From Mycobacterium sp. (lineage in GTDB: Bacteria > Actinomycetota > Actinomycetes > Mycobacteriales > Mycobacteriaceae), in the NCBI GenBank assembly GCA_025965975.1, contig JAOPVX010000353.1, forward strand, positions 1 through 34,892: a stretch of DNA of 34,892 nt, written 5' to 3'. The translations under genes and the position numbers were made by a program. Under the pieces are notes generated by a model. The model was given only the letters and a program-made list of their open reading frames with translations. It was not told where the DNA came from and made no database searches. Positions 1 through 14,565 of this stretch are shown one piece after another (positions within the stretch are counted from its first letter, which is position 1; every line of letters starts with the position of its first letter).

Positions 1-408
1 TCCGTCGCTCTCGATATCGGCCGCCGTGATCGCGTTAAACGCTTTGATGATTGTCGATTTCGGCAGATGTCGGCCAACCAGTTCGCTCGTCGTAATCTCG
101 TCCCGGTCCAACTCATCGATATGGCCGTCGCGCTCGGGATGGTAATTCGTGGCGTCGAGGACGGTCTTTCCTTCCAGCTGGGCGACGGGAACTGTGTGGT
201 AGGCCTTCAGCGGGATCGCGAGCAGCACAATGTCGCCGAACACTGCGGCCTCCGCGGGAGTACCGGCCTTGCAGCCGATGGAGTCGACGAAGCTGGACAA
301 CGTATCGGGGCCGCGCGCATTTGAGACCATCACGTCGTGGCCCTGCCGGGTTGCAACGGCAGCTACTGCACTCCCGACAGAGCCGGCTCCGATAATTCCA
401 ACCTGCAT
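1..408 (-). CDS. NADP-binding F420-type reductase (partial, C-terminus outside window)
   Basis: The reading frame is open from an ATG at 406-408 to the window edge, giving 136 residues without a stop, so the C-terminus is missing. It begins MQVGIIGAGSVGSAVA, a Rossmann dinucleotide fold with GxGxxG at residues 7-12. Further on are VSNARGP, DIVLLAIP and KAFNAI, the pattern of the NADPH:F420 oxidoreductase-like family (Fno/ProC-like N-terminal domain). Family knowledge suggests hydride transfer with NADP(H), but many members have unknown substrates and F420 use is not shown here. A GAAGGG ribosome binding site lies 8 bases before the start. The methyltransferase gene ends 65 bp upstream on the same strand, so cotranscription is possible. 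Confidence 0.8.
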   Translation of the reverse strand, partial: MQVGIIGAGSVGSAVAAVATRQGHDVMVSNARGPDTLSSFVDSIGCKAGTPAEAAVFGDIVLLAIPLKAYHTVPVAQLEGKTVLDATNYHPERDGHIDELDRDEITTSELVGRHLPKSTIIKAFNAITAADIESDG

Positions 409-473
409 GTCGATGCCCTTCGTTAATTGGCGAGCGGGTCTCGGCTCGACGTCGCGACCCGGTCCGTGGACGG

Positions 474-1250
474 TTAGCGTGCGCGCCAGCCGGGCCGGCT
501 GGCGACGACGATCTGGCGGCCCCACGGCTGCTGCATGCGAATCCGCAGTTGGATTTTCGGGTCGGCGTATCGAGCCAGTGCGCGCATCGCCGAGGGACTG
601 TAGGCCCGCAGCGAGCTGATGACGGCTTCGTGGGCAAATGGGTGGACGACAGTCAGCGGCAGGAGGGCCGCCAGCTGCGCGAGGTGCGGGATCGACGGCG
701 GCCGTGGCAGGTCGATGATGAGCAGCTTGTCCGCGACCCGGGTGCCCTCGGCGAAGACCCATGAGGCCAGCGGCGGCGGTAAATGATGATAGGACTGGGC
801 GAAGACCGCCAGATCAAAGCATCCGTCGGCGGCGCCGATCGCAGTGGCGTCCATGACGCGTACCGTCGCCCGGGGGTGGCGGCCCAGATCCCCAGCCGCG
901 ATGTGAGCCACCGAGGTGGGATCGATGTCAGTGACGGTGACGTGCGCGCTGGGATGGATCTCAAGCAGCTTGCGTGACAGCCCGCCGTGACCGGAGCCCA
1001 GTTCCAGAATCGTCGGATCGGCGACATCGGCAACCTCGTCGAGCGCCAGCCGGGCGAACTTCTCGTGGTCCTTGAACAGGCTGCCAAGGCGTTCCAGGGA
1101 GCGCACGACCTGGCGCTTGACCCGATCGTCGACGTCGTCGCGGTCCAGGTACTCCAGGCGATCGGTCTGTAGCCGACGGTCCAGCCAGGAAGCATCGGGG
1201 CCGCCGCGCGGCATCCGGTCGATGTCGATGACTGCCGGGTCAGTGGGCAT
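474..1250 (-). CDS. class I SAM-dependent methyltransferase
   Basis: The 258-residue product carries the SAM-binding motif I LELGSGHGGLS, an acidic motif II VTVTDIDP and a FDLAVFAQSYHHLP segment typical of class I methyltransferases. A charged N-terminal helical region of about 80 residues precedes the Rossmann domain. The substrate cannot be told from sequence. The ATG at 1250 follows a GGAGAAT ribosome binding site at good spacing. The reductase gene begins 65 bp downstream on the same strand, so the two may form a small operon. No signal peptide or membrane segment is evident, pointing to a cytosolic enzyme. Confidence 0.8.
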   Translation of the reverse strand: MPTDPAVIDIDRMPRGGPDASWLDRRLQTDRLEYLDRDDVDDRVKRQVVRSLERLGSLFKDHEKFARLALDEVADVADPTILELGSGHGGLSRKLLEIHPSAHVTVTDIDPTSVAHIAAGDLGRHPRATVRVMDATAIGAADGCFDLAVFAQSYHHLPPPLASWVFAEGTRVADKLLIIDLPRPPSIPHLAQLAALLPLTVVHPFAHEAVISSLRAYSPSAMRALARYADPKIQLRIRMQQPWGRQIVVASRPGWRAR

Positions 1251-1708
1251 CTGAATTCTCCGATCTCGCGGGGCCGGGTCGCATCGCGGACGTCAAGATC
1301 ACGGTGACGATCTACTTGCCACCATCCCGGGCTAGCGGTGCCATGTCGGCACCACTGACGCCCATCAGCGCCCCCAGCTGACTGGAATTCCTACTTACCT
1401 GCTAGCTGCAAATGCCCAGCGTCCTGCTACTCGAGCAGCGCGGCGGCCCCATGTGCCGCCTGCCGAACAGGACAGCTAGTTCTACGGTGAAATCTGAACG
1501 ATCGCCACGAATTCGAGGAACAACCACTCGCCAAGAGGTGAGGCGACCGACGAAACAGAGATCAGGTCTAGGCCGATGAACGCTGCTGCTTCGTCTAAAG
1601 CGAATACGTGAGCGTGCCTCATGACGCAGAAGTCAACTTCAGCCCGACTGGATACCGGTCGGGGCTTCCGCGCGCAGCACTTCGGATGAGGAAGTAAAGC
1701 AGGCGCTT
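1251..1708. other. intergenic region between divergent methyltransferase and kinase genes
   Basis: This 458-bp stretch separates two divergently transcribed genes and must hold both promoters. I found no convincing coding region, no clear -35/-10 pair and no strong palindrome in it. Confidence 0.5.
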
Positions 1709-3916
1709 ATGCGGGCACGTTTGCTGTCACTGTTGCGGCCAACACCCCGGCCGCTGCGGCTCGGGATCGCGGCCGCCTTGGCGTTCGTCGTGGCAGAGAC
1801 CTTGGTGCTCTACCCGCTCGAACAGCTCGCTTTCGAGACCGCTCTGGTTGTGGTCTACCTGCTCGGGGTCGTGGTCGTCGCGATTGGATGGGGGTTCTGG
1901 CTGGCGGCGGCGACGTCGGTGGCTAGCGCCCTGGCCTTTGACTACTTCTATATCCAGCCAGTCGTTAGCTTCATCCCAACGCGGGCCGAGGACGCGGTGG
2001 CACTTGCGGTCTTCTTGGTGGTTGCGCTGTCGGTCAGCACGCTGGCGGATGTGGCCCGATTGCGGGCGGCGGAGGCAGATCAGCGCCGCATTGAGGCCAA
2101 CCTGGCGGCCGAGTTGGGCCGGATGATGTTATACACGCGCGACTTGGGCTCCGCGCTGGATCACGCCGCCAAACGGCTCGCTCTGGTGCTGGGGCTGGCG
2201 TTTTCCGAGCTCAAGCTTGAAGCGGTCACTCCCGACGAGCGCCATTCCGCAATTCCGTTGCGCGACGGTGCAACCCAAATCGGCACGCTGCTCGTGCCCA
2301 CCGACTTGTCGAAGCCGATGAAGCAGCGCCTGCGCCAGCGGGTGGTGCCGCCCCTGGAACTGCTTCTTGGCGCGGCACGCGACCACGAAGAAATACACAA
2401 CGCGCTGGAGGCCAGCCGAAGGGAGCTGGAGCGGTTTTTCGATCTGTCGTCTGACCTGCTTGGTATCGGGCGCCGGCCCGCACATTGGAAGCGCGTAAAT
2501 CGAGCGTTCGAGCGAACTTTCGGGCAGCCGACCCAGGAGCTGCTGTCGCGGTCGTTTCTCGATTTCGTTCATCCGGCGGACCTGAGGCCCGTCTGCGAGG
2601 TGCTCGACGAGTTAGAAACTGGCCAGGGGTTCACGCAGTTTGAGCACCGCATCATCAGCAGCGATCGCTCCGTGCGCTGGCTGGAGTGGAACGTCGTACC
2701 GGATCGCGGCTTGCTCTACGTGGCTGGTCGTGACGTGACCGAGCGTCGGCGCGAGCAGGACAAACTGGGCGTGCTCGCACAGCAGCAGTCCGCCTTGCGG
2801 CGGGTGGCCACCCTGGTGGCGCGCGGGGTTGAGCCGTCGGAGGTGTTCTCGGCGGTGGCAACGGAGTTGGCCCGGTGCCTCGGCACGCACTACTCGGCGC
2901 TGTGGCGCTACCAGCCCGACGGTATGGTCACGCTACTGGCGGCCAGCGACGACGACCCCGGGTTGAAGAAGATGCCCGTCGGTGCTCCGTTTTCACTCGA
3001 GGGCGAAAGCGTCTCGGCGATGGTGTTGCGCACCGGCCGCGCCGCCCGGATCGACAGCTTCGAGAGCGCTCCCGGTTCCATCGCTGCACGGGTGCGTGAT
3101 GTGGGCCTGCGGGTGGCGGTGGGTGCGCCCATCGAGGTCGGCGGCCGAGTGTGGGGGGCGGCCGTCGTCGGCTCGTATCGACCCGAACCGCTGCCCCCCG
3201 ACACCGAGGCGCGGGTCGGGGACTTCGCCGATCTGGTCGCCACCGCGATTGCCAACGCACAGGCCCACGCGGAACTGACGGCGTCGCGGGCCCGGATCGT
3301 GGCCGCCGGCGACGAGGCGCGGCGGCGTTTCGAACGCGATCTGCACGACGGTGCCCAACAACGGCTGATCTCGCTGGGGCTCGCGCTTCGCACGGCGCAG
3401 GCAGCGGTGCCACCCGAACTGCACCCACTCAAGAAGCAGATGTCAGACATCGTCGACGGTCTGGTCGGCGTGTCCGAGGAGGTGCGAGAGATCTCGCGCG
3501 GGATTCACCCGGCGATTCTGTCCAAGGGAGGGCTCGGGCCGGCACTCAAGACGCTGGCGCGCCGATCAGCTGTGCCGGTCGAGCTCTCGCTAAGTGTCGA
3601 CCGACGGTTGCCCGAGTCCGCCGAAGTGGCAGCCTATTACGTCGTTGCAGAAGCCCTCACCAACACCGCCAAACACGCACGAGCGTCGCAGGTCGACCTG
3701 TGCGTCGAAGCCGACGACGCCATTCTCCATCTCTCGATTGAGGATGACGGAATCGGGGGCGCCGCTGTCGGTAAAGGTTCTGGACTCACCGGCCTGATGG
3801 ACCGTGTCGAAGCGCTCGGCGGCAGGATGGAAATCTCGAGTCACCCCGGAAACGGGACATCGCTGCGCGTCAACATCCCGTTGCAAGTCGGAGGACAGAC
3901 GAGGTACGAGGCCTGA
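1709..3916 (+). CDS. orphan sensor histidine kinase: DUF4118 membrane domain, PAS, GAF, HisKA_3, HATPase
   Basis: A 735-residue membrane sensor kinase. Residues about 15-115 form hydrophobic segments resembling the KdpD-type DUF4118 membrane module. They are followed by a helical linker, a PAS domain at about 240-350 (ending RDVTERR) and a GAF domain at about 365-520. The NarL/DesK-type dimerisation domain has the phosphoacceptor His546 in RDLHDGAQQR. A HATPase domain at about 635-730 has an N-box (EALTNTAKHA) and glycine-rich DDGIGG and GSGLTG boxes. Such kinases normally phosphorylate a LuxR/NarL-type response regulator, but none is encoded next to it. The ATG at 1709 follows a weak GCAGG site. 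The signal is unknown; PAS plus GAF suggests a small ligand, redox or light input. Confidence 0.9.
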   Translation: MRARLLSLLRPTPRPLRLGIAAALAFVVAETLVLYPLEQLAFETALVVVYLLGVVVVAIGWGFWLAAATSVASALAFDYFYIQPVVSFIPTRAEDAVALAVFLVVALSVSTLADVARLRAAEADQRRIEANLAAELGRMMLYTRDLGSALDHAAKRLALVLGLAFSELKLEAVTPDERHSAIPLRDGATQIGTLLVPTDLSKPMKQRLRQRVVPPLELLLGAARDHEEIHNALEASRRELERFFDLSSDLLGIGRRPAHWKRVNRAFERTFGQPTQELLSRSFLDFVHPADLRPVCEVLDELETGQGFTQFEHRIISSDRSVRWLEWNVVPDRGLLYVAGRDVTERRREQDKLGVLAQQQSALRRVATLVARGVEPSEVFSAVATELARCLGTHYSALWRYQPDGMVTLLAASDDDPGLKKMPVGAPFSLEGESVSAMVLRTGRAARIDSFESAPGSIAARVRDVGLRVAVGAPIEVGGRVWGAAVVGSYRPEPLPPDTEARVGDFADLVATAIANAQAHAELTASRARIVAAGDEARRRFERDLHDGAQQRLISLGLALRTAQAAVPPELHPLKKQMSDIVDGLVGVSEEVREISRGIHPAILSKGGLGPALKTLARRSAVPVELSLSVDRRLPESAEVAAYYVVAEALTNTAKHARASQVDLCVEADDAILHLSIEDDGIGGAAVGKGSGLTGLMDRVEALGGRMEISSHPGNGTSLRVNIPLQVGGQTRYEA

Positions 3917-3982
3917 TCAGCGCTCTTGCCTTCAGTGTGGGCCAGACACTGCGTTGGGGTTTGGATCACAATGTCGGCCTTG

Positions 3983-4960
3983 TCAGCCCAGGTGGTTGGT
4001 GAGGAAGCTGACGATGGCCTGCATAACATGTTCGGACGACCACGGCTTGGCGACACTAGGGTCGAATCCCAGGAACGTCAGGTCGCCGTGGTTGGCACCG
4101 TTGATCACATACCGCGTGCTCCCGACGCCCTTGGCACGCAGCGCATTGTGCAGTATCAAGGTCTGGCTGGGCGAGACGAGCTGATCGGCACTCCCATGCA
4201 GCAGCAGAAACGGCGGGCTCGCCGCGCTGACGTAGGTGACCGGGTTCGCCGCCGCCATCGACGTGGGTTTGTCCTGCACCGACAGGGTGGTGCCCTGGCC
4301 GAAGATGAACTGGGCGAAGGAGTTACCCGCGGCATACGTGGCGTCCTGCGTGGCGACGTCGTAGTCGGAGGCGAGCGTTGAGATGTCGCATGGGCCGAAC
4401 TCGTCGACGACGGCCTGCACCGTGCTGCTCTGGCCCGGGTTGGCGCCGTTCTCGAACTGCTTGAGACCGTCGGTTACTCCCGTCATCGCGGCGAGGTAGC
4501 CGCCGGCTGACTGCCCCCACACCGCGACCTCGCCCATGTTGATTCCGTATCGGTCGGCGTGCGCTCGCAGGTAGCGGATCGCCGACTTGATGTCGGCGAC
4601 GGAGTCCGTATACGTCGCGCAGGTAGTGACGGTGCGGTACTCGACGCTGGCCACGACGTAGCCCTGCTCAGCCACGTATGTGCGCTGGTCGAGATTCGCC
4701 GTCTTGTCACTCCTGAGGAATCCACCGCCGGTGATGTAGACGACCAGCGGCTTCCTGCCCGGGCTTTGGGGCACCACAACGTCCAGCTTCAGCGGAATCT
4801 GTGTGCCAGACGACGTCGATGTGTCGTACACGATGTCACGGTAGGTCGTCAGCTGTACTTTGCCGCAACGGATTTGGGGGCTGCTGCCGCCGATGACGAT
4901 GCTCGTGCTGGTGTCGCTGGGCGCGATGGCCTTCGCGAGAGGGATGCTCGGCATGGTCAT
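3983..4960 (-). CDS. alpha/beta-hydrolase, carboxylesterase of the HSL/BD-FAE type
   Basis: A 325-residue esterase-like protein. It has an oxyanion-hole glycine run GGGF (78-81), a nucleophile elbow GQSAGG with Ser151, a probable acid Asp259 in HGSADQLV and His291 in GANHGD. The triad therefore looks complete. No clear signal peptide is seen, although the N-terminal 25 residues are low-complexity. Family members hydrolyse short acyl esters; the substrate is unknown. The start codon overlaps the stop of the MarR gene by 4 bp (ATGA), which implies translational coupling and shared control by that regulator. Confidence 0.88.
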   Translation of the reverse strand: MTMPSIPLAKAIAPSDTSTSIVIGGSSPQIRCGKVQLTTYRDIVYDTSTSSGTQIPLKLDVVVPQSPGRKPLVVYITGGGFLRSDKTANLDQRTYVAEQGYVVASVEYRTVTTCATYTDSVADIKSAIRYLRAHADRYGINMGEVAVWGQSAGGYLAAMTGVTDGLKQFENGANPGQSSTVQAVVDEFGPCDISTLASDYDVATQDATYAAGNSFAQFIFGQGTTLSVQDKPTSMAAANPVTYVSAASPPFLLLHGSADQLVSPSQTLILHNALRAKGVGSTRYVINGANHGDLTFLGFDPSVAKPWSSEHVMQAIVSFLTNHLG

Positions 4961-5427
4961 GGCCCGACCAGCCCCAGTTGCCGGAACAGCGCAGCGAGTG
5001 CCTGCTTTTCGCGTTCGTCGAGCGAGCCGAGGAAATGGGTGCGGACCGCGGCGGCGTGTACGCGGACGGCTTCGCGGATCTCTTGGGCGCCGTGTTCGGT
5101 AAGTCCGACGTCGCGAAGCCGGCCGGTGCCCCTGTCGACCCGGGTGAGCAGGTCGCGTCCCTCCATCCGCTCCAATTGATGTGACAGCCGCGAAGCCGAC
5201 CAGCCGAGTGACTCGCCCAGATCACGTTGGGTCAGCGTGGCGCCCGGCGCCTCGTGCAGACGGACAAGAACCTCGAAGTCCGGCCTGGACAGGCCGGTGG
5301 CGTTGACGAGGTCGCTGCCCACCAGCGCTAGAACGGTTTCCGACCAGGCAAGAAACCCTCGCCATAGGGACTGTTCCGGGGCCGAGAGCGTCGCGCTGGT
5401 GCTCCGGGTCGCTGGTTTTCTGGCCAT
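4957..5427 (-). CDS. MarR-family transcriptional regulator
   Basis: This 156-residue protein has the winged helix-turn-helix of MarR regulators: LTQRDLGESLGWSASRLSHQLERME is helix-turn-helix plus recognition helix, and RGTGRLRDVGLTEHG is the wing. MarR proteins bind palindromes as dimers and usually release DNA on binding small phenolic or lipophilic ligands. The gene is divergent from the EAR-propeller operon, with only 81 bp between the starts. That gap holds two palindromes (5451-5462 and 5478-5495), so it most likely represses both arms, its own included. The esterase gene overlaps its 3' end. Confidence 0.9.
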   Translation of the reverse strand: MARKPATRSTSATLSAPEQSLWRGFLAWSETVLALVGSDLVNATGLSRPDFEVLVRLHEAPGATLTQRDLGESLGWSASRLSHQLERMEGRDLLTRVDRGTGRLRDVGLTEHGAQEIREAVRVHAAAVRTHFLGSLDEREKQALAALFRQLGLVGP

Positions 5428-5450
5428 CCGTCCATGATCCCGACACTATG

Positions 5451-5462
5451 TTGACATGTCAA
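5451..5462. promoter_or_regulatory. candidate MarR operator 1 (perfect 12-bp palindrome)
   Basis: TTGACATGTCAA is a perfect palindrome 23 bp upstream of the marR start and 47 bp upstream of the divergent operon start. Its arms resemble those of the second palindrome (TTGAC...GTCAA). Centres are 30 bp apart, about three helical turns, so two dimers could sit on nearly the same face. Confidence 0.6.
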
Positions 5463-5477
5463 GACAGGAGCGTACCA

Positions 5478-5495
5478 TTGACGTTGATACGTCAA
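5478..5495. promoter_or_regulatory. candidate MarR operator 2 (7-bp arms, 4-bp spacer)
   Basis: TTGACGTTGATACGTCAA has perfect 7-bp inverted arms (TTGACGT/ACGTCAA) around TGAT. It ends 13 bp before the ATG of the plus-strand operon, so a bound protein would block transcription or initiation there. It shares TTGAC/GTCAA ends with operator 1. Confidence 0.6.
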
Positions 5496-5508
5496 GTCAG
5501 GGAGTGCA

Positions 5509-6618
5509 ATGGTTTCTCTCACCGCGATTGGCCGGTTGCATACGTCAGGTGCGCGCGCGGTCGAGCCATTCCACATCGACGGCGCGCTGTTTGTGGCGGT
5601 GCCGCAGCTCGCGATCGACATTCCCGGCCAGACACCGGACATCAACGGCGGCGACAGCGATACGTCGTTGCTGGTTTTCCGTGCTGACAATGGGGGATTC
5701 GCCGAGCATCAACGGCTGGATGCACCGGGTGGTGAGGATGCGGAGTTCTTCCGTATCGGCGGTCGGAATTTTCTCGCGACAGCGAGCATCCGGACCGGGC
5801 GCGGGCCCTACGAATTCGGCACCGAGTCGCTCATCTTTGAATGGCGGGCAGGCCGGTTCGAGCCGTTCCAGGCGATTCCGACGTTCGCCGCCAAACAGTG
5901 GAAGGCATTCACCGCCTTCGGACGGCATTTCCTCGCGTTGGCTCAAGGGGTCAGCCCACCTGGTATCGACGGGGCGAACAAGTCGTCAGTGATCTACGAA
6001 TGGACCGGCAGCGGTTTCGAGGAGTTCCAGCAGATCCCGTCCGAATGGGGCTACAACTGGCATCCGTTCGAGCTGGACGGTCAGGTGTATCTCGCCTATG
6101 CAGACCACGTCAAGCCGTCGGTGCTGTACCGGTGGAACGGGAACCGGTTCGTTGCGCGTCAGGTATTGCTGGAGCGCGCAGGCAGAGCGTTCGCCCACTT
6201 TGAAGTCGAGGATAATACCTATCTCGTCACCGCGTGTATTGACGGCTCCTCTGCGGTGATGCGTTGGGAAGACGGCTTTTTCGAGCCTTTCCAGGAGCTA
6301 CCGGACGCGGGAGCGCGGGAGCTCGCCGTATTCGCCACTATCCACGGGTTGTACCTCGCGCGGGTCAACTTCATCACCGGAAGCCCTCACCAGCCGCAGG
6401 TCTCGTTGAATTCGCAGGTGTACCGGTGGGGGAACGGGAAGCTCGTCACCGTTGTCGAGTTCCCTACCACGGGGGCCACCGACGTCGCGGTCATCCCTGG
6501 TCCGGGGCACACCCGGTTGGCGGTGTCGAACAGCTTGAGCCCTCAGGTCCGGTTCGCCTCCCAGACAGTGATTTACACGTTCGACGATTCATTCGACGGC
6601 GAGGGGCCAGGGCTATGA
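5509..6618 (+). CDS. EAR/EPTP-repeat protein, predicted seven-bladed beta-propeller
   Basis: A 369-residue protein built almost wholly of repeats. Seven copies of a strand-turn unit can be seen, each of the form hydrophobic-Y/F-x-W, two to three polar residues, G-x-F, then FQ-x-I/L-P. Examples are LIFEWRAGRFEPFQAIP, VIYEWTGSGFEEFQQIP and VMRWEDGFFEPFQELP. This matches the EAR (epitempin, EPTP) repeat, which folds into a seven-bladed propeller; seven units would give one closed propeller. The family is best known from vertebrate LGI and ADGRV1 proteins, where it binds ligands. No signal peptide is present, so it is probably cytosolic. An AGGGAG ribosome binding site lies 4 bases before the ATG. 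The stop overlaps the next start (ATGA). The function is unknown; binding of a protein or small molecule is inferred. Confidence 0.8.
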   Translation: MVSLTAIGRLHTSGARAVEPFHIDGALFVAVPQLAIDIPGQTPDINGGDSDTSLLVFRADNGGFAEHQRLDAPGGEDAEFFRIGGRNFLATASIRTGRGPYEFGTESLIFEWRAGRFEPFQAIPTFAAKQWKAFTAFGRHFLALAQGVSPPGIDGANKSSVIYEWTGSGFEEFQQIPSEWGYNWHPFELDGQVYLAYADHVKPSVLYRWNGNRFVARQVLLERAGRAFAHFEVEDNTYLVTACIDGSSAVMRWEDGFFEPFQELPDAGARELAVFATIHGLYLARVNFITGSPHQPQVSLNSQVYRWGNGKLVTVVEFPTTGATDVAVIPGPGHTRLAVSNSLSPQVRFASQTVIYTFDDSFDGEGPGL

Positions 6619-7814
6619 CCAGCCCTGCGCATCCGGAAATCCCGGAAATGGCGGATCTGTTCACGGTTTACACCGCTGATCCGCAGAGCATCGGTTCCGC
6701 ACTGACCCACACCGAATATCGCAGCCGCCAACAGGATCCCCTCATCGTCGCCACGAGCTTCGACGTCGCTCTGTACCCGGGGCGAGGACAGGCGCCACAA
6801 GTGGAGGGGTTTCGCGTCGGCACGCGCGGATTCACGGAACTCGCGGGTCTGTCCCATCTGGGCCCGGCGGCGGCTTCGCTCGTCAGCCTGTACGAACGCG
6901 CGGGCGACGGCGCGTGGCGTGCGCAGGCGGAACGACTCATCACGGCAACCGAGCGGGCGCGTGCGGTCAACACGGTAGCCCTGTGGCGCGATGCCATCGC
7001 CGTGGAAGCGTTTCGAGGCCGCGAACCGCGGATCTCGCAGATGTACGACTATGCCTGCGCCGCCACCGTGGTTTACCTGCGCCGCGCCCTAACCGAGGAC
7101 GGCTACCTCTCCCGCGAGAGCCTGCAGCGCGACTACCTGGGCAGCATCCCAGGTGGCGGATCGTGCCCGGCATTGATCAACGAGATGATGGTCGCGACGT
7201 TCTTCCTCGTCGGCCTTGACAACGCCTATCGCCTGCTGCGCTGGTTCCGCGACCGGCACGTCGCCTGGGACCGCGTCATGGTCATCGTCGCAGGCAGGCA
7301 GGGGCGACCCACCGCGGGAGTGACGTGGAACACCAGCAGCGTCGCTGCAATGCTGCGCGGCGCCAGTGAGTATCGGCTTCCGCTGGAACGCATGTATATG
7401 GCCCCGCACGCGCCCACCTTCTCCACCCCCAAGGACGGCGACCTATCCGAGGTCGCCAGTCTGGAGGAGCCGCTGCGGCAGTTGTGGGCGGCCCTGCACG
7501 CCATCCAGGGTCTCGGGGACATCATGTTCCCCGGCTACCCGCGCTTCACCCCGCGCAGCGTGGCGGCTGCCGACGTGTCAGACCTTGCGGTGACCGAAGT
7601 CAGCGAGATGCCGCTCATTCGTGATGCGGACGATTTCCGGGCGATGGTCACTCGGCTGCGAGTCGTGTTGGAAGATCCCCGACAACTGTTGTCGTCCTGC
7701 GTGACTGACTTCGCGGTAGCTCAACTCGTCCAGCACGGCAATGATCCCACCAAGGTAACCGTGCCGGGGCTCGACAACATCAGCTATCCGACCCTCGATC
7801 GCGAGAACCCGTGA
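6615..7814 (+). CDS. unrecognised 399-residue protein of the EAR-propeller operon
   Basis: I do not recognise this family. The frame extends further upstream, but the ATG at 6615 overlaps the propeller stop by 4 bp and is the natural start. The protein is soluble-looking, with no signal peptide. It has a conserved-looking glycine segment LGSIPGGGSCP near the middle, flanked by helical stretches, followed by AGRQGRPTAGVTWNTSSVAA, which suggests a compact alpha/beta enzyme-like fold. The next gene starts at its stop codon. The four-gene overlap argues for a stoichiometric partnership with the propeller, possibly as the catalytic or effector member. This is inference from context only. Confidence 0.75.
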   Translation: MTSPAHPEIPEMADLFTVYTADPQSIGSALTHTEYRSRQQDPLIVATSFDVALYPGRGQAPQVEGFRVGTRGFTELAGLSHLGPAAASLVSLYERAGDGAWRAQAERLITATERARAVNTVALWRDAIAVEAFRGREPRISQMYDYACAATVVYLRRALTEDGYLSRESLQRDYLGSIPGGGSCPALINEMMVATFFLVGLDNAYRLLRWFRDRHVAWDRVMVIVAGRQGRPTAGVTWNTSSVAAMLRGASEYRLPLERMYMAPHAPTFSTPKDGDLSEVASLEEPLRQLWAALHAIQGLGDIMFPGYPRFTPRSVAAADVSDLAVTEVSEMPLIRDADDFRAMVTRLRVVLEDPRQLLSSCVTDFAVAQLVQHGNDPTKVTVPGLDNISYPTLDRENP

Positions 7815-8677
7815 TGGCCGTCTTCCGCCAGGTCGAATGGGAGCCGCGGTATCTCGACGTTGACGGCGCGCGGCTGGCGTACTACCTGTCCGGGCAGGGC
7901 GAGAACCCGGTGGTGTGGCTGCACGGGCTGCCCCTCGACTCGCGGTCGTGGTCGGCCCAGCGTGCGCACTTCGACCCGTTGGCGCGCAATATATTCGTCG
8001 ATCTGCGTGGCTATGGTGGCTCAAGCAAGCTTCCGCCCAACCGTACCGATATCACCCAGCTCTACGCCGATGACCTCGGTACCCTGCTGACCCATCTCGG
8101 CCTACGGGAGGTGGCGGTGATCGGGTTCGCCTCGGCGGGACACGTGGCACTGCGGTTCGCGGCACAACATCCGCAGCGGCTGGCCAAACTCGCTGTGATT
8201 AACGCATCGCCGCGATTCCGCCGGGGCGACGACTGGCCGTGGGGATTCGACGACGCCACCATCAATCAGCTTGTTCGAACCGCGCGCGATGGCGGAATCG
8301 AGGCGATCACGGATCTTCTTCTGGATCCAGCCACAGTATTCCGAGACGTCGGCGAAGACCAGGCCCATCGCCTGAAGCAGTGGTTCGCCGAGATGAGCCG
8401 CTCGGCCGGCACCGATACCCTGATGGGATTCGTCGAGGGGATCTCCCGCGACGACGACCGCCACCTTCTCCGGTCGATCGCCACGTCAACCCTAGTGGTG
8501 AGCAGTGCTATTGGTCGTGAAGTCCCTTCTGATGTAGGACTTTATCTCCGCGAGCGTATCGGCAAGTCGTGCCTGGTCGAGATCGCCGGAGCCGACCATT
8601 TCGTGTTCGCCACCCGACCGCTGCTGCTCAACATGCTGCTCGCCCAATTCCTTTCCACGGCACCCCAGGCGAATTGA
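7811..8677 (+). CDS. alpha/beta-hydrolase-fold protein, probably lacking the catalytic nucleophile
   Basis: The fold is clear: VVWLHGLPLDSRSW carries the oxyanion-hole HG, FVDLRGYGGSSK follows strand 4, and GADHF near the C-terminus carries the usual His (His263). At the nucleophile elbow the sequence is GFASAGHVAL. Aligned with the usual GHSMGGxVAL pattern, the nucleophile position is Ala107, with a serine one residue later. The usual acid after strand 6 (G-x-D-x-x-V/I-P) reads AIGREVP, without Asp. It may be a non-catalytic ligand-binding relative, or the triad may be rearranged. GTG at 7811 overlaps the previous stop; an ATG at 7814 is an alternative start. Confidence 0.82.
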   Translation: MMAVFRQVEWEPRYLDVDGARLAYYLSGQGENPVVWLHGLPLDSRSWSAQRAHFDPLARNIFVDLRGYGGSSKLPPNRTDITQLYADDLGTLLTHLGLREVAVIGFASAGHVALRFAAQHPQRLAKLAVINASPRFRRGDDWPWGFDDATINQLVRTARDGGIEAITDLLLDPATVFRDVGEDQAHRLKQWFAEMSRSAGTDTLMGFVEGISRDDDRHLLRSIATSTLVVSSAIGREVPSDVGLYLRERIGKSCLVEIAGADHFVFATRPLLLNMLLAQFLSTAPQAN

Positions 8678-9039
8678 TGTTCGCCGCCACCATTGCCAGC
8701 TCTGCCTTGTTGGCCGTCGCGCTCATCCCATCGGCGCGGGGCAAGCTCGTCGGCGACCCCCGTCAGTCAGACGGAATGCGGGCCGTGAAGTTTCCAGCCG
8801 ACAAGATGTGGTTGCTGGGGGTTGCCGAATTCGGCGGAGCAGCCGGTCTGACCGTAGGGCTGTTCTGGTGGCCGCTCGGAGTAGCAGCGGCGGTGTGTTT
8901 GATCGCCTATTTCGGCGGTGCCCTCGCATACCTCCTGCGCGCGGGCATAACTCACGCGAAGGCGCTCGCACCGGCCGCGGTTCTGCTGCTGGTCGCGATC
9001 GCCACCCTCGTACTTCGACTCGCGACCTCGACGCCCTAG
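8677..9039 (+). CDS. DoxX-like small integral membrane protein
   Basis: A 120-residue protein with four predicted membrane segments: about 1-18, 44-62, 64-85 and 92-115. The ends are short and polar, as in DoxX-like proteins. The segment ARGKLVGDPRQSDGMRAVKFPADKMWLLGVAEFGGAAGL between the first two helices is typical of that group. Its ATG overlaps the previous stop by one base (TGATG), so it is the fourth gene of the coupled operon and would bring the system to the membrane. DoxX relatives are linked to redox or sulphur metabolism in other organisms; the role here is unknown. Confidence 0.8.
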   Translation: MFAATIASSALLAVALIPSARGKLVGDPRQSDGMRAVKFPADKMWLLGVAEFGGAAGLTVGLFWWPLGVAAAVCLIAYFGGALAYLLRAGITHAKALAPAAVLLLVAIATLVLRLATSTP

Positions 9040-9067
9040 CCGTTGACGCGCGGCGGTCGTGTCGAGG
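9026..9067 (+). terminator. possible transcription terminator of the EAR-propeller operon
   Basis: CCTCGAC (9026-9032) and GTCGAGG (9061-9067) form a 7-bp perfect stem around a 28-base GC-rich loop that can pair further. It spans the stop codon of the last gene. No T-run follows, which is common for mycobacterial terminators. Confidence 0.3.
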
Positions 9068-9248
9068 ATCCCGTCGGCTCGCCGCCCACACATCGGTCAC
9101 GCGTAGCTCAGCCGCAATGCTGCGCTACGGCCCGCCGCGTGTACAGGTTCAGTCCGGATCACACGGCTTCGCGCGAGCTGGGAACTGCCGGCGCAATTTC
9201 TTCGCCGGGACGCCACTTCGATTCCGGCCGGAATCGCCGTTTCGCGTG

Positions 9249-9320
9249 CAGTAACTCTCGGATCGTGACGTCCCCGTCGTACACACCATCGAGCAATGCC
9301 CCCATCGTGGAGGTCTGCTA
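9249..9320 (-). pseudogene. fragment of acetolactate decarboxylase (BudA-like)
   Basis: Read on the minus strand, 9317-9249 gives QTSTMGALLDGVYDGDVTI followed by RELL. This matches the conserved N-terminal segment of alpha-acetolactate decarboxylase (Y-Q-x-S-T-x-x-A-L-x-x-G-x-Y-D-G). The residue before it is an in-frame TAG, and the downstream GDFGLGTF segment cannot be read in any frame. It is therefore a decayed remnant. Confidence 0.5.
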
Positions 9321-10085
9321 GATCTCCCGCCCGTGCCGGTGGGTGAGCATCGTGTCTACCCACTCCCGAAAGCCGCTTGCAGCAGAACCCTGGGTCACCG
9401 AACTAGACTCACAGTTCGGGTGGCGAGAAGGCGTCTACGCTGCCGCCCAACCCCGCCTCCTGCCAGCCACACTTCATCCCTGGGTGCTAGCTGCAATGGG
9501 CGCCGAGCGTTTCGGCCACGAACCGGCGTTGGTCCAGCCGATTGCGGCTAGTGGGTATGCCAATACTGCGGGTCGCGGTACGCGGCGTTCGTCGTCACTC
9601 ATGGGGCCATCGCTGCGGTCACCATGTCACCCTCTCGAATCGGAACGTCTTTATGGCCCGCCTTCTCAGCAGCTGCGCTTGCGACATGTCCCACCCCATT
9701 TGTGTGACCCGTACCGCTATGAGCATGGCGGCCTGCCGATCATCGGAGATCCGCAGTATCCCAATGTTATTGACGTCGCCCAGACGTCTTTTCGCTAGGC
9801 GACAGCCTTGAGCTCGAGGACCCCGCCAGTGGACGTCAGCAGCGAGTTCGGCGGCAGTTCCATTAGGTCGTCGAGGCGGCCCCACTACAGCCACTGGCGC
9901 CATGCACTGGCCGCGGGATCCGTGGGCAATGAGTGAGCTGTCGCCGGAGACGGTCGGGCTGCCGTCGCGCGCGCGTACCCGGGCAGAGGGCGCCGACGGC
10001 TCGCCTGCCCTCCCGCCTGTAGTTGCGGTGGAATGCGGCCACGGGTGGTTCTGGGTGCGGACGCGGCGTGCACACCCACCGCGCG
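9321..10085. other. non-coding or decayed stretch between gene remnants and vapBC
   Basis: Apart from the pseudouridine synthase fragment noted separately, I see no supportable gene here. One long open frame (9343-9798) has no recognisable N-terminal domain and includes the pseudouridine synthase fragment only near its end. It is best read as decaying DNA. Confidence 0.4.
9690..9860 (+). pseudogene. C-terminal fragment of an RluA-type pseudouridine synthase
   Basis: One frame reads QQLRLRH, then GLPIIGDPQYPNVIDV at about 9730-9780. This is like the end of RluA-family RNA pseudouridine synthases (THQLRxH...G-x-PIxGDPxY). About 20 bases later another frame reads SLELEDPASGRQQRV, matching the usual C-terminal S-L-E-F-x-D-P-x-S-G. 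The two parts are out of frame and no catalytic HRLD motif is found upstream, so this is a broken remnant. Confidence 0.45.
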
Positions 10086-10136
10086 GCAGCAGATATAGCT
10101 GCATTTCAGCTGCATTGCTGCTATTATCGCTGCATG
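10086..10136 (+). promoter_or_regulatory. vapBC promoter with GCTGC repeats and leaderless-type start
   Basis: TATTAT at 10122-10127 is a good -10 hexamer, and the vapB ATG starts 7 bases after it, so transcription would begin at or next to the start codon. No Shine-Dalgarno is present, in line with a leaderless mRNA. GCTGC occurs four times (10098, 10109, 10117, 10130). The nonamer AGCTGCATT is repeated 11 bp apart, about one helical turn, and GCAGC at 10086 pairs with GCTGC at 10098. These repeats are a plausible operator for VapBC autorepression. Confidence 0.5.
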
Positions 10137-10367
10137 GTCGCTGTAACCGTTCGAGACATTCCCGACGGTGTCCGCGACGAGCTGGCGGCACGAGCGGCGC
10201 ACGCGGGAAAGTCGTTGCAGGAGTATCTGCGTGGACTATTGGTGGAGGCGGCGAACAAGCCGACCGTCGATGAGGTGTTGGCTCGGGCGCGTGCACGGGT
10301 GACCACAACAGGGGCACGCATCGATGCCGCGGCAACTCTTGCGGCAAGAGACGCCGATCGGCGGTGA
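10134..10367 (+). CDS. vapB: VapB-type antitoxin (ribbon-helix-helix)
   Basis: A 77-residue protein beginning MVAVTVRDIPDGVRDELAARAA, a ribbon-helix-helix DNA-binding domain. It is followed by HAGKSLQEYLRGLL and a variable arginine-rich tail that would embrace the toxin. The frame runs further upstream, but the ATG at 10134 is supported by the -10 box just ahead and by the family start. Antitoxins of this type neutralise VapC and, with it, repress their own promoter. The toxin gene overlaps its stop by 4 bp. Confidence 0.87.
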   Translation: MVAVTVRDIPDGVRDELAARAAHAGKSLQEYLRGLLVEAANKPTVDEVLARARARVTTTGARIDAAATLAARDADRR

Positions 10368-10774
10368 ACGGCCGCCTGGTTTGCGACGCCTCGGCCGTGG
10401 TGAGCGCACTACTCGACTCGGGAGAAGCCGGTAGGTGGGCAGCGCAACGACTCGCTGGGGCCGCCCTCTTCGCTCCCGCACTGATGCCGTTTGAGTGCTC
10501 GAACATCATCCGCCGCCATGAACTCAGTGCCCTTGTCAGCGCCGACCAGGCGGTACAAGCCCATGCCGATCTCGTAGACCTGCCCATCGACCTGTGGCCC
10601 TATGAGGTTTTGGCGGCGCGCATCTGGCAATTGCGCCCTAATCTCACGAGTTACGACGCGGCCTATGTCGCTTTGGCCGAGGCGCTCGGACTTCCCCTCG
10701 TCACGCTGGATCAGCGTATTCAGCGAGTTCCCGGTATCACCTGCGTGGTGGATACTCCGCCGGGATCGCCGTAA
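10364..10774 (+). CDS. vapC: VapC-type PIN-domain toxin (ribonuclease)
   Basis: A 136-residue PIN-domain protein. The four acidic metal-binding positions are all in place: Asp8 (VCDASAVV), Glu44 (MPFECSN), Asp98 (LTSYDAAYVALAE) and Asp116 (TLDQRI). This indicates an intact Mg-dependent endoribonuclease; mycobacterial VapC toxins cleave specific tRNAs or 23S rRNA, and the target here is unknown. It starts at GTG 10364, overlapping the vapB stop (GTGA). It sits alone among decayed genes, as toxin-antitoxin modules often do. Confidence 0.88.
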   Translation: MNGRLVCDASAVVSALLDSGEAGRWAAQRLAGAALFAPALMPFECSNIIRRHELSALVSADQAVQAHADLVDLPIDLWPYEVLAARIWQLRPNLTSYDAAYVALAEALGLPLVTLDQRIQRVPGITCVVDTPPGSP

Positions 10775-10914
10775 TCGCCTGTCACGCCCAGCGTCGCGAT
10801 ATGAACGGCGGTGGGCGACGGCGCGCGGTGGGCGGCGACCACTCGGTGCGTTCGGCCTCGGCGTGCATGGTTCGGGGTCGGTCGTGGTTGCTCGTCGACG
10901 AACGAGAATCACAT

Positions 10915-11012
10915 GGTTTGGAGGGCCCGCCCGGCACCGCCAAGACCAGCTTCGCGCGCATCGTCGCCGAACTCCTGTTCGGGCTGGGCACGATTCAGCG
11001 TCCCGCACCGAC
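10915..11012 (+). pseudogene. fragment of an EccA-like AAA ATPase
   Basis: One frame reads GPPGTAKTSFARIVAELLFG followed by LGTIQRP, a Walker A motif in the setting of CbxX/CfqX-type AAA ATPases such as type VII secretion EccA (GPPGTGKTTxARxxAxxxxGLGxI). The GK of the P-loop reads AK. No Walker B or flanking domain follows; the frame runs into the convergent NADH dehydrogenase gene. It is a short remnant. Confidence 0.5.
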
Positions 11013-11029
11013 GAGCGTGTCCCGATGTT

Positions 11030-12403
11030 TTAAGGCGTGGGCGTCGTCTCGCCGGAAGGATGCGGCGCGTGAAGCATGTTGGGGTGCACGAACTTCAACC
11101 AGGTGTAGGGGTGCTCGGGTGAAGTCGTGCTACCAAGGATGAACGTTCGGTCCGTGCGGCGGGCGCGCGCGATCGTGGCCAGCCACGTGGCGACTGTGCT
11201 GATGCGGTTCTCCAAGCCAGTGAGAAATGCGATGTGGATGAGTCCCCAGCCCAGCCAGCCGATGAACCCGGCGAGCTTGATCGGGCCGGCTTGAAGCAGG
11301 GCGTGTCCACGGCTGATGTAGGCCGCAGAGCCGACATCGCGGTAGCGGTAGTGCGGACGAGCCTTGCCGGTCAGATCGTGACGAACGCAGGCCGCGGCAT
11401 GGATTCCGCCCTGCATCGCGTTCTCAGCCACGCCCGGCAGGTTGTCGCGGCCGACGAGGTCACCGATGACGAAGATTTCCGGATACCCGGGCACCGACAG
11501 GTCGGCTGCCACCGCGATGCGTCCGGCATGGTCGGACTTGGCCTCGAGCACCTTTGCGATACGCCGCGCGAATGGCACGGCCTCGACGCCCGCCGTCCAC
11601 AGGACGGTCCTCGCCGCAAACTCCTCGGGCGAGCCGCCCGCCTTGGGTGTGACGGTCACGCGGTCGTGTCGCACGTCGGTGACGTGCACACCCATGTGCA
11701 GTTCGACGCCCAGATTCTGCAGGATCTTGGTGGCTTTGTCGGTGAGGTCTGGCGCGAAGCTGCCCAGAACGCAGCTTCCCCCGTCGAAGAGCAGTACACG
11801 CGCGTCTTCGGGCTCGATGCTGTGGAACTCTTTGGCAAGGGCTCGAGTAGCCATTTCCCGGATCTGCCCGGCCAGCTCCACACCGGTGGGTCCGCCACCG
11901 GCTATGGCGAAGGTGAGCCACGCGTCGCGCTCAGGCCCCGGGGGGAGAGTTTCGGCCATCTCGAATGCGCCGAACAGCCTGCGGCGGACGCTCAGCGCGT
12001 CGTCGAGGGTCTTCATCCCTGGCGCCCACTGTGCGAATTCCTCATGGCCCAAGTAGGACTGACGCATTCCGACGGCGACTATCAGCACGTCGTAGTCAAG
12101 GGTGAACGTGGACTCGTCGGGGCGGCGGGCGGTGACCTGGCGCGCGTCGGCGTCGAGGTCGACGGCTTCGCCGAGCAGGGTGGTGACGTTGTGGTGACGC
12201 GCGAGCTCCTCGCGCAGCGAGCGGCTGATCTGCCCAAGGCTCAATGTCCCGGTGGCGCACTGGTAGAGCAGCGGCTGGAACACGTGGGAAGCGGCGCGAT
12301 CAAGCAACGTGACCTCGACATCGACACGCCCGAGTCTGCGCGCGCAGAACAACCCTCCGAATCCGCCCCCGATGATCAACACCCTTGTTCGACCGTCACC
12401 CAT
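11030..12403 (-). CDS. ndh: type II NADH dehydrogenase (NDH-2)
   Basis: The 457-residue flavoprotein has an FAD-binding GGGFGG at residues 12-17, the HVFQPLLYQ-ATG segment typical of NDH-2, a second Rossmann motif AGGGPTGVE for NADH, and FVIGDL near the second FAD motif. The C-terminal part (PIKLAGFIGWLGWGLIHIAFL) is the amphipathic membrane-anchoring region. It would oxidise NADH and reduce menaquinone without pumping protons. ATG at 12403 has an AAAGG site 8 bases upstream and is preferred over an ATG 18 bases earlier that has none. Mycobacteria often carry more than one ndh, so this may be a paralogue. Confidence 0.9.
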   Translation of the reverse strand: MGDGRTRVLIIGGGFGGLFCARRLGRVDVEVTLLDRAASHVFQPLLYQCATGTLSLGQISRSLREELARHHNVTTLLGEAVDLDADARQVTARRPDESTFTLDYDVLIVAVGMRQSYLGHEEFAQWAPGMKTLDDALSVRRRLFGAFEMAETLPPGPERDAWLTFAIAGGGPTGVELAGQIREMATRALAKEFHSIEPEDARVLLFDGGSCVLGSFAPDLTDKATKILQNLGVELHMGVHVTDVRHDRVTVTPKAGGSPEEFAARTVLWTAGVEAVPFARRIAKVLEAKSDHAGRIAVAADLSVPGYPEIFVIGDLVGRDNLPGVAENAMQGGIHAAACVRHDLTGKARPHYRYRDVGSAAYISRGHALLQAGPIKLAGFIGWLGWGLIHIAFLTGLENRISTVATWLATIARARRTDRTFILGSTTSPEHPYTWLKFVHPNMLHAPHPSGETTPTP

Positions 12404-12968
12404 CACGTCACCTTTTCCCATTCGAGGACCAGCTCATCACGGTGTACCCGCCTCAGTCTGCGGTCTGAGGCGTCCTTGCTCGGCGAGACCGCCTACCACA
12501 ACGCGGCGACGTCGCACCGGTCGAGGCCGGCCGCCCAGATTTTGTCGCGGACAGTGACGATGATTGTCACGGCGTTGTCACTCGTGCACTACACGCGGGT
12601 GGCCCTCTCTAAAACGATCATCGCAGTTCAGGAGCCTCCGAGGCATGCAGCGACTCCGGAATACACCCCGTCGTGCGGACGGTAAATCCGTCGGCTAACG
12701 CCTACGCAGGTTCGACCCCGGATACCTCCGCCACCAAGTGCGCGGCTCAGGTTCAACAGCACCGCCCTCGGGATCGGGAAGGTGGCCACCCTGGCGGCTT
12801 GCGTCGCAGCGTCGGTCGCGGTTTGCGCCACTAACCGCTCGGCCGCGGTGACGGGATTTATCTGCATGAGTTGTGTGGACAACGTCAGGCGAAGGTCGGT
12901 TATGTCGGCTTGACCCCTCCGCCAGGAAGAGCGCTGCTGCATCGGCCCTCAGCAGTGCAGAAATTGTC
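12404..12968. other. intergenic region upstream of ndh and the SigF-type island
   Basis: About 565 bp between divergent genes. No coding region is convincing; open frames on the minus strand (12628-12982) show no domain, ribosome binding site or codon pattern I trust. Only the SigF-like promoter at its right end is recognised. Confidence 0.4.
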
Positions 12969-12993
12969 GTTTCCGTAGGCAACGGACGGGTAT
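12969..12993 (+). promoter_or_regulatory. SigF-like promoter of the 13018 gene
   Basis: GTTT at 12969-12972, a 15-base spacer and GGGTAT at 12988-12993 fit the mycobacterial SigF consensus (GGWWT, about 16 bases, GGGTAY). The start codon lies 24 bases after the -10 box. Confidence 0.6.
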
Positions 12994-13017
12994 CCGGGCA
13001 GAAGGAGGTATGGAGAA

Positions 13018-13599
13018 ATGCCCGTCTGGAGTTGGTTCTTTATTGCAGCAGCCGTCCTGATCGCGTTCACGCTGGCGTTGATCGCCGTCCTGTCTGTGAC
13101 CGCTCGCAAGAGGACCGAACGGTTGAAAAAGCACTTTGGTCCGGAGTACGAACGAGCTCTAGGTGAGGCCGGTGGTCAGCGAGCCGGCGAACAGGAGCTC
13201 GTTGCGCGCGAACGAAAGCGACAAAAACTCGACGTCGTGGTGTTGTCGCCGGAAGCGCACGCAATGTATGCCGAACACTGGCGGACGGTGCAGGCCGCGT
13301 TCGTCGACGATCCGTCGAAGGCGGTGGGCGACGCAGATCGCCTCGTGACCCAGGTGATGCGCGAACGCGGTTATCCGATTGACGATTTCGATCAGCGTGC
13401 GTCTGACATCTCGGTCGATCACCCGGACATGGTTGAGCACTATCGAGCCGCTCACACCCTCCACTTGACGCAAGAGAAGGGCGATATCGGCACGGAGGCG
13501 CAGCGTCAGGCGTTCGTCCACTACCGCGCGCTCTTCGAGCAGTTGCTCGGCGCCGGCCTCGAAACCGAGAAGGACACGCGAAAGGAGGCCCGGGCATGA
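13018..13599 (+). CDS. membrane-anchored protein of a stress-linked mycobacterial family
   Basis: A 193-residue protein with one N-terminal membrane helix (about residues 4-26, SWFFIAAAVLIAFTLALIAVL) followed by a charged cytoplasmic region. The motif W-x-x-VQAAFVDDPxxAVxxADxLVxxVM at about 90-115 is shared with the next gene, so the two are tandem relatives. Function is unknown. It has a strong ribosome binding site (GAAGGAGGT, 8 bases before ATG) and a SigF-like promoter, which suggests induction under stress or in stationary phase. The downstream gene starts inside its stop codon (ATGA). Confidence 0.8.
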   Translation: MPVWSWFFIAAAVLIAFTLALIAVLSVTARKRTERLKKHFGPEYERALGEAGGQRAGEQELVARERKRQKLDVVVLSPEAHAMYAEHWRTVQAAFVDDPSKAVGDADRLVTQVMRERGYPIDDFDQRASDISVDHPDMVEHYRAAHTLHLTQEKGDIGTEAQRQAFVHYRALFEQLLGAGLETEKDTRKEARA

Positions 13600-14127: not shown

Positions 14128-14206
14128 GGCTCTTCCACACAGGCTTGTCGGAGCGACGGGCTGCCCCAATCTCACCATTTTCTGCGGATGAGTTCCCGGG
14201 GTAGCA

Positions 14207-14245
14207 CTCGGCCCGCCACCCAACGCAACGGGACGGCGGGCCGAG
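14207..14245. terminator. strong hairpin between convergent genes
   Basis: CTCGGCCCGCC (14207-14217) and GGCGGGCCGAG (14235-14245) form a perfect 11-bp stem. The 17-base loop contains CCC and GGG that can extend it. It lies 80 bp after the plus-strand gene and 11 bp after the CsbD-like gene stop, so it could end transcription from both sides. Confidence 0.65.
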
Positions 14246-14256
14246 CAGATTTGCGC

Positions 14257-14430: not shown

Positions 14431-14488
14431 GATGTATTCCCTTCGATCGGTTTGGGTTGCGGCTCGGAAGTGAGCCTTACGAACTGGG

Positions 14489-14515
14489 TTACCTCAGGGG
14501 CAGTCATCCGAAACC
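14489..14515 (-). promoter_or_regulatory. SigF-like promoter of the CsbD-like gene
   Basis: On the minus strand GGTTT (14515-14511), a 16-base spacer and AGGTAA (14494-14489) resemble the SigF consensus, with two mismatches in the -10 box. The start codon is 59 bases downstream. Confidence 0.4.
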
Positions 14516-14565
14516 CATTGCGGCTGTGACATCAGACTCGATAAATCAGGAAAGCAGCCTCGGCT

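Follow-up and report, generated by a model that had tools for sequence, protein, structure and literature searches.

Six genes between positions 3983 and 9039 of the window, by which we mean the whole 34,892-nucleotide stretch of Mycobacterium sp. DNA that was analyzed, make up two divergent operons. The plus-strand operon encodes a 369-residue EAR/EPTP seven-repeat protein (5509..6618), a 399-residue DUF5624 protein (6615..7814), an alpha/beta-hydrolase homolog that lacks the nucleophile and the acid and carries the motif GFASAGH (7811..8677), and a 120-residue DoxX_2 membrane protein (8677..9039). These four genes overlap at all junctions, as the initial annotation had it: by 4 bp between EAR and DUF5624 (6615–6618), by 4 bp between DUF5624 and the hydrolase-like gene if the latter starts at GTG 7811 (1 bp from ATG 7814), and by 1 bp between the hydrolase-like and DoxX_2 genes. 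On the minus strand lie the genes for a 156-residue MarR-type regulator (4957..5427; MarR_2 6.7e-11, 84% identity in the related mycobacterial locus L005) and a BD-FAE family esterase (3983..4960), which overlap each other by 4 bp. Between the operons, in the control region that the divergent MarR-esterase pair had been said to share, are two palindromes: the perfect TTGACATGTCAA (5451..5462), a putative MarR operator, and the imperfect TTGATACGTCAA with 2 mismatches (5484..5495), a second putative operator 33 bp from the first and weak when taken alone. The frames are real genes: homologs of similar extent occur elsewhere and dN/dS between the window and L005 is 0.19–0.29 for the four genes compared (DUF5624, the 3' part of EAR, MarR and the esterase). 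Simple hydropathy analysis detected no membrane segment in the EAR, DUF5624, hydrolase-like or esterase protein of the window.

The initial annotation had proposed an HMM search of the first protein against the EPTP family; Pfam PF03736 matched it at 173.5 bits (curated cut-off 21; E 8.2e-52), and matched 11 of 11 EAR sequences at E 0.001 in a scan of the loci other than L050–L052. Pfam by itself delineates six stretches in the window protein at E up to 1 and five at E up to 0.001; a register set by hand yields seven repeats whose first residues are 4, 64, 117, 170, 214, 258 and 312, which together with the family match upholds the seven EAR/EPTP-type repeats claimed earlier. These repeats would probably close into a seven-bladed propeller. 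Among 14 aligned full-length EAR proteins, the window's included and several closely related, invariant residues occupy 21 of 35 cells at repeat positions 14–18 (expected 5.8; p 6e-10) and 0 of 42 cells at positions 22–27 (expected 6.9), a post hoc comparison for which the positions were picked from the table, the register was hand-set and several sequences are close relatives. The invariant residues fall at one spot per repeat, differ in identity between repeats and are often polar; position 16 reads R, E, K (13 of 14 sequences), Y, R, R and T across blades 1–7. At the level of the alignment, such blade-specific conservation resembles an asymmetric ligand or active site.

The second protein, whose length of 399 residues had been given correctly and which had gone unrecognized, can now be named as DUF5624: it matches PF18538 at 132.3 bits (cut-off 25; E 1.4e-38), as did 12 of 12 DUF5624 sequences at E 0.001 in the scan of loci other than L050–L052, and 61 positions are invariant over an alignment of 15 sequences, the window's included. 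Its residues 53–387 are homologous to PDB 4jx2 (E 1.7e-23; by profile, E 1.8e-47), a solved structure, presumably of a Legionella protein, that is recorded as a ‘hypothetical protein’ with no stated function. Common to both are the G-F-x-E...S-H-x-G stretch, W124 and D145-Y146.

The third protein belongs to the alpha/beta-hydrolase fold family (Abhydrolase_1 2.4e-18) without preserving its catalytic triad. In an alignment to chloroperoxidase F, whose triad positions we presumed for this placement, the nucleophile is replaced by Ala107 and the acid by Gly235, with His263 retained; all three are invariant in the five hydrolase-like sequences, the window's among them. The replacement of the nucleophile Ser and the acid Asp agrees with the earlier description of an apparently dead hydrolase, and the fourth gene had likewise been read correctly as a DoxX-like membrane protein (PF13564, 54.3 bits, cut-off 26.3, E 1.7e-14; three hydropathy peaks). 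The divergent esterase matches PF20434 at 169.5 bits (cut-off 26.8; E 9.3e-50), and its G-x-S-A-G nucleophile motif, Asp259 and His291, which we take to supply the triad, are conserved in three of three aligned sequences.

Across 15 loci (L050–L052 included), ranging from Mycobacterium and Streptomyces to Sinorhizobium, the conserved unit is the EAR-DUF5624 pair rather than the four genes. The pair is present in 15/15, a hydrolase-like gene in 5/15 and a DoxX gene in 2/15, and the EAR-DUF5624 junction varies, being a 4-bp overlap at one extreme and a gap of some 45 bp or more at the other. The genome-neighborhood survey suggested at the outset thus bears out the association of the first two genes and not that of all four, and the notion of one four-gene system with fixed stoichiometry is not supported. 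Among 505 genomes (259 and 246) searched with the EAR profile A6, 10 contained a match, 8 of them full-length, and DUF5624 lies directly downstream in 8/8, two of which, the window's own genome and G669, had been included in the profile. DUF5624 profiles matched 8 of 433 genomes (249, 24 and 160), with EAR directly upstream in 8/8; four of these (G669, G1243, G1258, G1291) were first found via DUF5624, and the other four were known beforehand and part of the profile. The genome samples of the several profile searches may overlap. Either protein was found at E 1e-5 in 2 of 72,556 plasmid records, both of which carry both proteins, and the two genes are adjacent in all three plasmid loci retrieved. 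Over 14 loci, the distances of EAR and those of DUF5624 show a correlation of 0.978, a value that 0 of 5000 permutations attained. Within the phylum, PF18538 matched one of 396 genomes and PF03736 one of 392, each time only the window's own. We reject chance adjacency, as both families are rare, yet adjacent wherever both were found intact.

Matches outside the pair pattern were seen in G115 (E 7e-4, two stops) and, with the EAR profile, in G1011 (E 9e-4). In G1131 there is an EAR fragment of roughly 50 residues together with a distant hydrolase-like fragment, and DUF5624 was not found within the 18 kb read there. The S. mirabilis record has three EAR places, of which two were retrieved; the third possibly reflects a match in a shifted register. 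A phage origin was rejected: EAR had no match in 50,697 phage records and the DUF5624 profile none in viral contigs, and the sole viral match of the EAR profile (L018), a 2084-aa frame unrelated by eye, was set aside as spurious. A role in anti-phage defense was also rejected, PADLOC at E 0.01 having returned nothing for five of the six proteins and three weak matches to MarR.

Gene neighborhoods, which are largely catabolic and are given as raw counts over the 15 loci, include a LigI-like lactone hydrolase (Amidohydro_2) in 5/15 and, near the pair, an HpaI-family aldolase in 4/15, all four among the LigI-like hydrolase loci. The BD-FAE esterase, which the initial annotation had mentioned merely as a neighbor, recurs as an accessory gene in 5/15 (window, L005, L016, L034, L052), its homolog in L016 directly following the hydrolase-like gene; an isochorismatase-SDR-FAD oxidase set occurs in 3/15, two of the three on one S. 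mirabilis megaplasmid, and a Liv-type binding protein in 3/15. The best solved-structure matches of the amidohydrolase are 2-pyrone-4,6-dicarboxylate hydrolases; the Sinorhizobium Amidohydro_2 (L007; 53% identical) lies 6.7 kb upstream of EAR, past ABC and LysR genes. In L030 and L034, genes for HPPD and fumarylacetoacetase are found no more than about 9 kb from EAR. Because the L030 aldolase and amidohydrolase score far below the curated NCBIfam cut-offs, their names apply at family level with no substrate assigned. Four loci (L031, L032, L050, L051) carry the pair with none of the counted neighbors, the sequence covered upstream in L051 and L032 being merely 0.7–1.8 kb; in L031, a 27% esterase match lies 6 kb off. 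Lactone hydrolase and aldolase genes had no match in positions 1–20000 of the window, and a LigI-like gene had none in the window's own assembly, a weak negative. Catabolic genes flanking the pair in actinomycetes can be coincidental.

The model that we favor, with a probability of about one half, is that EAR and DUF5624 form the mobile two-gene core of a catabolic or detoxification pathway for a small molecule such as a lactone or phenolic ester. Constant pairing, the distance correlation, catabolic neighbors and the clustered invariant EAR residues support it, and the catabolic type of the neighbors implies that the bacterial EAR protein may work on a chemical instead of serving as a receptor. 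The four neighbor-less loci, the window's lack of aldolase and lactone hydrolase, the low NCBIfam scores and the partly deleted copies weaken it. The two genes would travel between bacteria as one unit, and the pathway would import, then degrade or detoxify, a small organic compound, most likely lactone- or ester-containing and of phenolic type; of the earlier guess of lipid/phenolic handling, the phenolic part fits the catabolic neighbors best. The EAR propeller would bind the compound on one face, each blade offering a different conserved residue, and may also transform it, with DUF5624 as a partner, either enzyme or subunit. The accompanying genes would vary with lineage: esterase, LigI-like lactone hydrolase and HpaI-family aldolase would funnel products to central metabolism, the isochorismatase-SDR-FAD oxidase set would serve in Streptomyces-type loci, and the non-catalytic hydrolase homolog and DoxX would be the accessory genes in the window. 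There, the MarR repressor would control both operons through the two palindromes. L005 has the palindrome pair too, again spaced by 33 bp; the number of palindromes is unremarkable, 15 of 100 window shuffles giving at least two matches when up to 2 mismatches are allowed. In the 7.4-Mb assembly, TTGACRTGTCAA is present just twice. The second copy (C65:28323) has an RPE65-family oxygenase gene on one side and a divergent PadR-like frame (by eye) on the other, and we claim no shared regulon since PadR could account for the palindrome there.

Catabolic enzymes and importers at several loci, and LysR or TetR regulators outside the window, make it unlikely that the pair detoxifies instead of feeding, as part of an electrophile/quinone stress module. 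The window does combine MarR, BD-FAE esterase, hydrolase homolog and DoxX, and a DoxX gene follows the pair in Sinorhizobium too, but DoxX is confined to the two loci, and the 156-residue window MarR contains no cysteine and so lacks the redox-sensing residue of an MhqR-type regulon. Slightly more doubtful is a membrane-associated ligand-sensing or scaffold complex with the propeller as a protein-interaction platform. Passages of one publication (PMC3691968) deal with the EAR repeat as a domain of animal proteins that is linked to epilepsy and deafness and is thought to mediate protein-protein interaction, and the tight gene overlaps of the window would suit a complex. However, the proteins free of hydrophobic segments by hydropathy include EAR, DUF5624 and the hydrolase homolog, DoxX is usually absent, and the conserved EAR residues are blade-specific and often polar, with N183, R226 and E271 not kept in aligned LGI1; the earlier idea of ligand sensing at the membrane consequently finds little support.

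We give little credence to the pair being tailoring or resistance genes of a specialized-metabolite cluster. The order isochorismatase-SDR-FAD oxidase-EAR-DUF5624-hydrolase in the three loci would fit, as would, judged by eye, an NRPS-like frame in L016 (18094–19230, 5 kb past the esterase) and condensation-domain-like frames in L005 (1947–3014) and on C256; against this, the gene lists of L008, L009 and L033 showed no PKS/NRPS frame by eye, and importers and an enzyme of retro-aldol type occur at other loci. That the system is open to loss is indicated by two partly deleted mycobacterial copies: in L005, EAR has a 5' deletion and a frame change and the hydrolase and DoxX are mostly deleted, and G000:C256, a contig of the same assembly, holds a decayed second copy, mostly fragments, with a DUF5624 fragment and a 24-residue EAR remnant. 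That the mycobacterial locus is a dying acquisition without present function, a view compatible with the other readings for other lineages, is nevertheless improbable given that the window frames are all intact, that dN/dS is low in the four genes compared and that L005 retains the palindrome pair.

Beyond the catabolic-core model, it is possible, though with the odds clearly against it, that the bacterial EAR is an enzyme instead of a receptor and with DUF5624 constitutes a new two-component catalyst for an undescribed step (e.g., lactone formation or ring opening) in aromatic/lactone catabolism, and that animal LGI1/TSPEAR-type domains descend from such small-molecule-handling propellers or have a common ancestor with them. 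Among open-licence PMC full texts, as judged by listings and abstract openings, neither DUF5624 nor bacterial EPTP proteins turned out to be the subject of any paper.

Among known systems, the Bacillus MhqR regulon combines a MarR regulator with an esterase and a DoxX-type gene, as the window does; it is not known to include EAR-DUF5624, no dioxygenase or nitroreductase gene was seen in positions 3983–9039 of the window, and the MarR there is devoid of cysteine. LigI/4-sulfomuconolactone hydrolase and HpaI-family aldolase clusters are resembled by the five related loci with a LigI-like hydrolase, four of which have the aldolase, whereas scores at L030 fall under the NCBIfam cut-offs and the window locus has neither enzyme; we know of no LigI/HpaI-type pathway with EAR or DUF5624, and the pair points to a possibly unrecognized catabolic step. 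DUF5624 gains a functional context from its pairing with EAR. The EAR fold is most familiar from a human protein involved in epilepsy, and the animal LGI1 propeller (PDB 5y2z and others) is the only convincing solved-structure match of the window EAR (profile, E 1.8e-18). The two have PF03736 and seven repeats in common; in contrast to LGI1, the window EAR is single-domain, has no hydrophobic N-terminus by hydropathy, is paired with DUF5624 and carries N183, R226 and E271, in whose place the aligned part of LGI1 has other residues. With its constant pairing and frequent catabolic setting, the EAR fold gains a testable small-molecule role, ancestral or parallel to that in animals.

Four closely packed genes on the plus strand of the window (5509–9039) encode a seven-repeat EPTP/EAR protein (EAR; PF03736), a DUF5624 protein (PF18538), a protein homologous to alpha/beta-hydrolases and a membrane protein of the DoxX_2 family; the genes of a MarR-type regulator and of a BD-FAE esterase diverge from this group. 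We regard the EAR-DUF5624 pair as, virtually beyond doubt, a real conserved module. DUF5624 lies downstream of EAR on the same strand at all 15 loci, which comprise the window; L005, from a Mycobacterium MAG, in which DUF5624 is 83% identical to that of the window and the EAR gene has lost a 5' stretch and its reading frame; L007 of Sinorhizobium RAC02; L008 and L009, both on one Streptomyces mirabilis megaplasmid; L016 of genome G669; six loci from EAR-profile searches (L029–L034); and three from a DUF5624-profile search (L050–L052). The EAR profile matched 10 of 505 genomes (259 + 246), eight at full length, and DUF5624 adjoins EAR in all eight, a count including the window's own genome and G669, both of which the profile itself contained. 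DUF5624 profiles found matches in eight of 433 genomes (249, 24 and 160), each with EAR adjoining; four of them (G669, G1243, G1258 and G1291) came to light through these profiles, the remainder being known beforehand.

The EAR and DUF5624 distances correlate at 0.978 across 14 loci, as plain common descent alone would also give. In both midpoint-rooted trees, the alphaproteobacterial L007 groups with four loci of family f88, and L052, also of f88, groups with a larger set holding the window and Streptomyces loci; from these placements, the pair seems to have been transferred between lineages as one unit. Between L008 and L009, dS is 0.017 for DUF5624, 0.137 for EAR and 0.321 for the hydrolase, a near-identical gene between more diverged ones, the pattern expected if the central gene had undergone gene conversion.

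The surroundings of the pair vary. Neighbours were counted by tblastn (E 1e-10, with coverage of the reference of 40% or more) at the 15 pair loci alone; absences are lower bounds, with locus lengths unequal and some contigs ending nearby. Three genes occur at five loci each: the hydrolase-like gene (window, L008, L009, L016 and L033, with remnants in L005 and contig C256), the BD-FAE esterase (window, L005, L016, L034 and L052) and a LigI-like Amidohydro_2 gene (L029, L030, L034, L052 and L007, there 6.7 kb upstream of EAR). An HpaI-family aldolase is present at four (L029, L030, L034 and L052), a Liv-type ABC substrate-binding protein at three (L029, L030 and L034), an isochorismatase-SDR-FAD oxidase set at three (L008, L009 and L033) and DoxX at two (window and L007, of differing Pfam families); tblastn found none of these genes at L031, L032, L050 and L051 (4/15). 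Regulators adjoining the pair or heading its cluster are MarR (window, L005), TetR (L016, L033) or LysR (L007, L029, L030, L052). Genes for 4-hydroxyphenylpyruvate dioxygenase and fumarylacetoacetase lie within about 9 kb at L030 and L034, and an FAD monooxygenase, an intradiol-type dioxygenase and a lyase are found near L029.

A second, decayed copy of the window region is present in the same assembly (contig C256, about 8072–9953 and 6559–7966), with pieces of DUF5624 (82%), the hydrolase-like gene, DoxX (78%) and the esterase (74%), an EAR remnant of 24 residues, along with a portion of the adjoining histidine kinase gene. In the window, a DUF4118-PAS-GAF-HisKA_3 sensor kinase gene (1709–3916, plus strand) adjoins the esterase; because the C256 copy, too, has related kinase sequence next to it, the kinase may travel together with the locus. 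Elsewhere, the window carries FitA-like antitoxin (PF22513) and PIN-domain toxin (PF01850) genes overlapping by 4 bp (10134–10774, plus strand), and an FAD-dependent monooxygenase gene (PF01494; 21078–22530, minus strand) spread over two overlapping frames, apparently broken through a frame change.

The 81-bp control region holds two palindromes of the TTGACATGTCAA type, one perfect and one imperfect, with a spacing of 33 bp, and L005 has a matching pair at identical spacing. The imperfect palindrome rests on this conservation, because shuffling the window yields two matches at up to two mismatches in 15 of 100 trials. Just two sites of TTGACRTGTCAA exist in the whole 7.4-Mb assembly. The sole further TTGACATGTCAA (contig C65, 28323–28334) is flanked by a gene of the RPE65/carotenoid-oxygenase family and, in divergent orientation, by a frame resembling a PadR regulator by eye.

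With the seven repeats of 14 EAR proteins in register, invariant residues occupy 21 of 35 cells at repeat positions 14–18 (5.8 expected; hypergeometric p 6e-10, a guide only, the positions being picked post hoc and some proteins closely related) and none of 42 at positions 22–27 (6.9 expected); a set of 11 proteins gave 21 and 1. From the general topology of propeller blades rather than from a model, we would expect the conserved positions to lie on one propeller face. Position 16 reads, blade by blade, R16, E76, K129 (13/14), Y182, R226, R270 and T324, and position 17 stands out at D77, Q130, N183, E271 and D325 (13/14), blade-specific fixed residues of the kind required for an active site or for binding an asymmetric ligand, or both being asymmetric. 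The animal EAR-domain protein LGI1, over its HMMER-aligned stretch, has a counterpart for R270 and none for N183, R226 or E271.

DUF5624 has 61 invariant positions across 15 proteins, including E75, H81, W124, D145, Y146, R206, R231, R347 and E353, a pattern compatible with an enzyme role but no proof of one. Solved structures gave no convincing match other than the related 4jx2, which in its aligned part retains G72-F73-x-E75, S80-H81, W124 and D145-Y146. The hydrolase-like protein carries Ala107 at the expected nucleophile and Gly235 at the expected acid, with His263 retained, in five of five sequences (four from Streptomyces-type loci, one from the window). Being common to both, the residue loss came before the two groups separated and seems to have been kept, in the manner of a pseudoenzyme that binds a ligand; the L005 and C256 copies are additionally decaying. 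The catalytic motif of the neighbouring esterase is intact.

Taken in sum, a role for the pair in small-molecule catabolism or detoxification is likely. The specific reading, a mobile two-gene core of a lactone/phenolic-ester catabolic or detoxification pathway, we place at a probability of about 0.5. In this scheme, drawn throughout from the neighbour genes, an inducer would release the one-component regulator, the compound would be imported (through the ABC system at some loci), the esterase or oxidase would prepare it, EAR and DUF5624 would bind or transform it, and the lactone hydrolase and aldolase, where present, would hand the pieces to central metabolism. Full-text searches of open-licence PMC papers found no description of this core, the EAR-DUF5624 pairing, or of its context; the EAR and DUF5624 families are each already known by sequence, and we class the locus as a catabolic-type operon.
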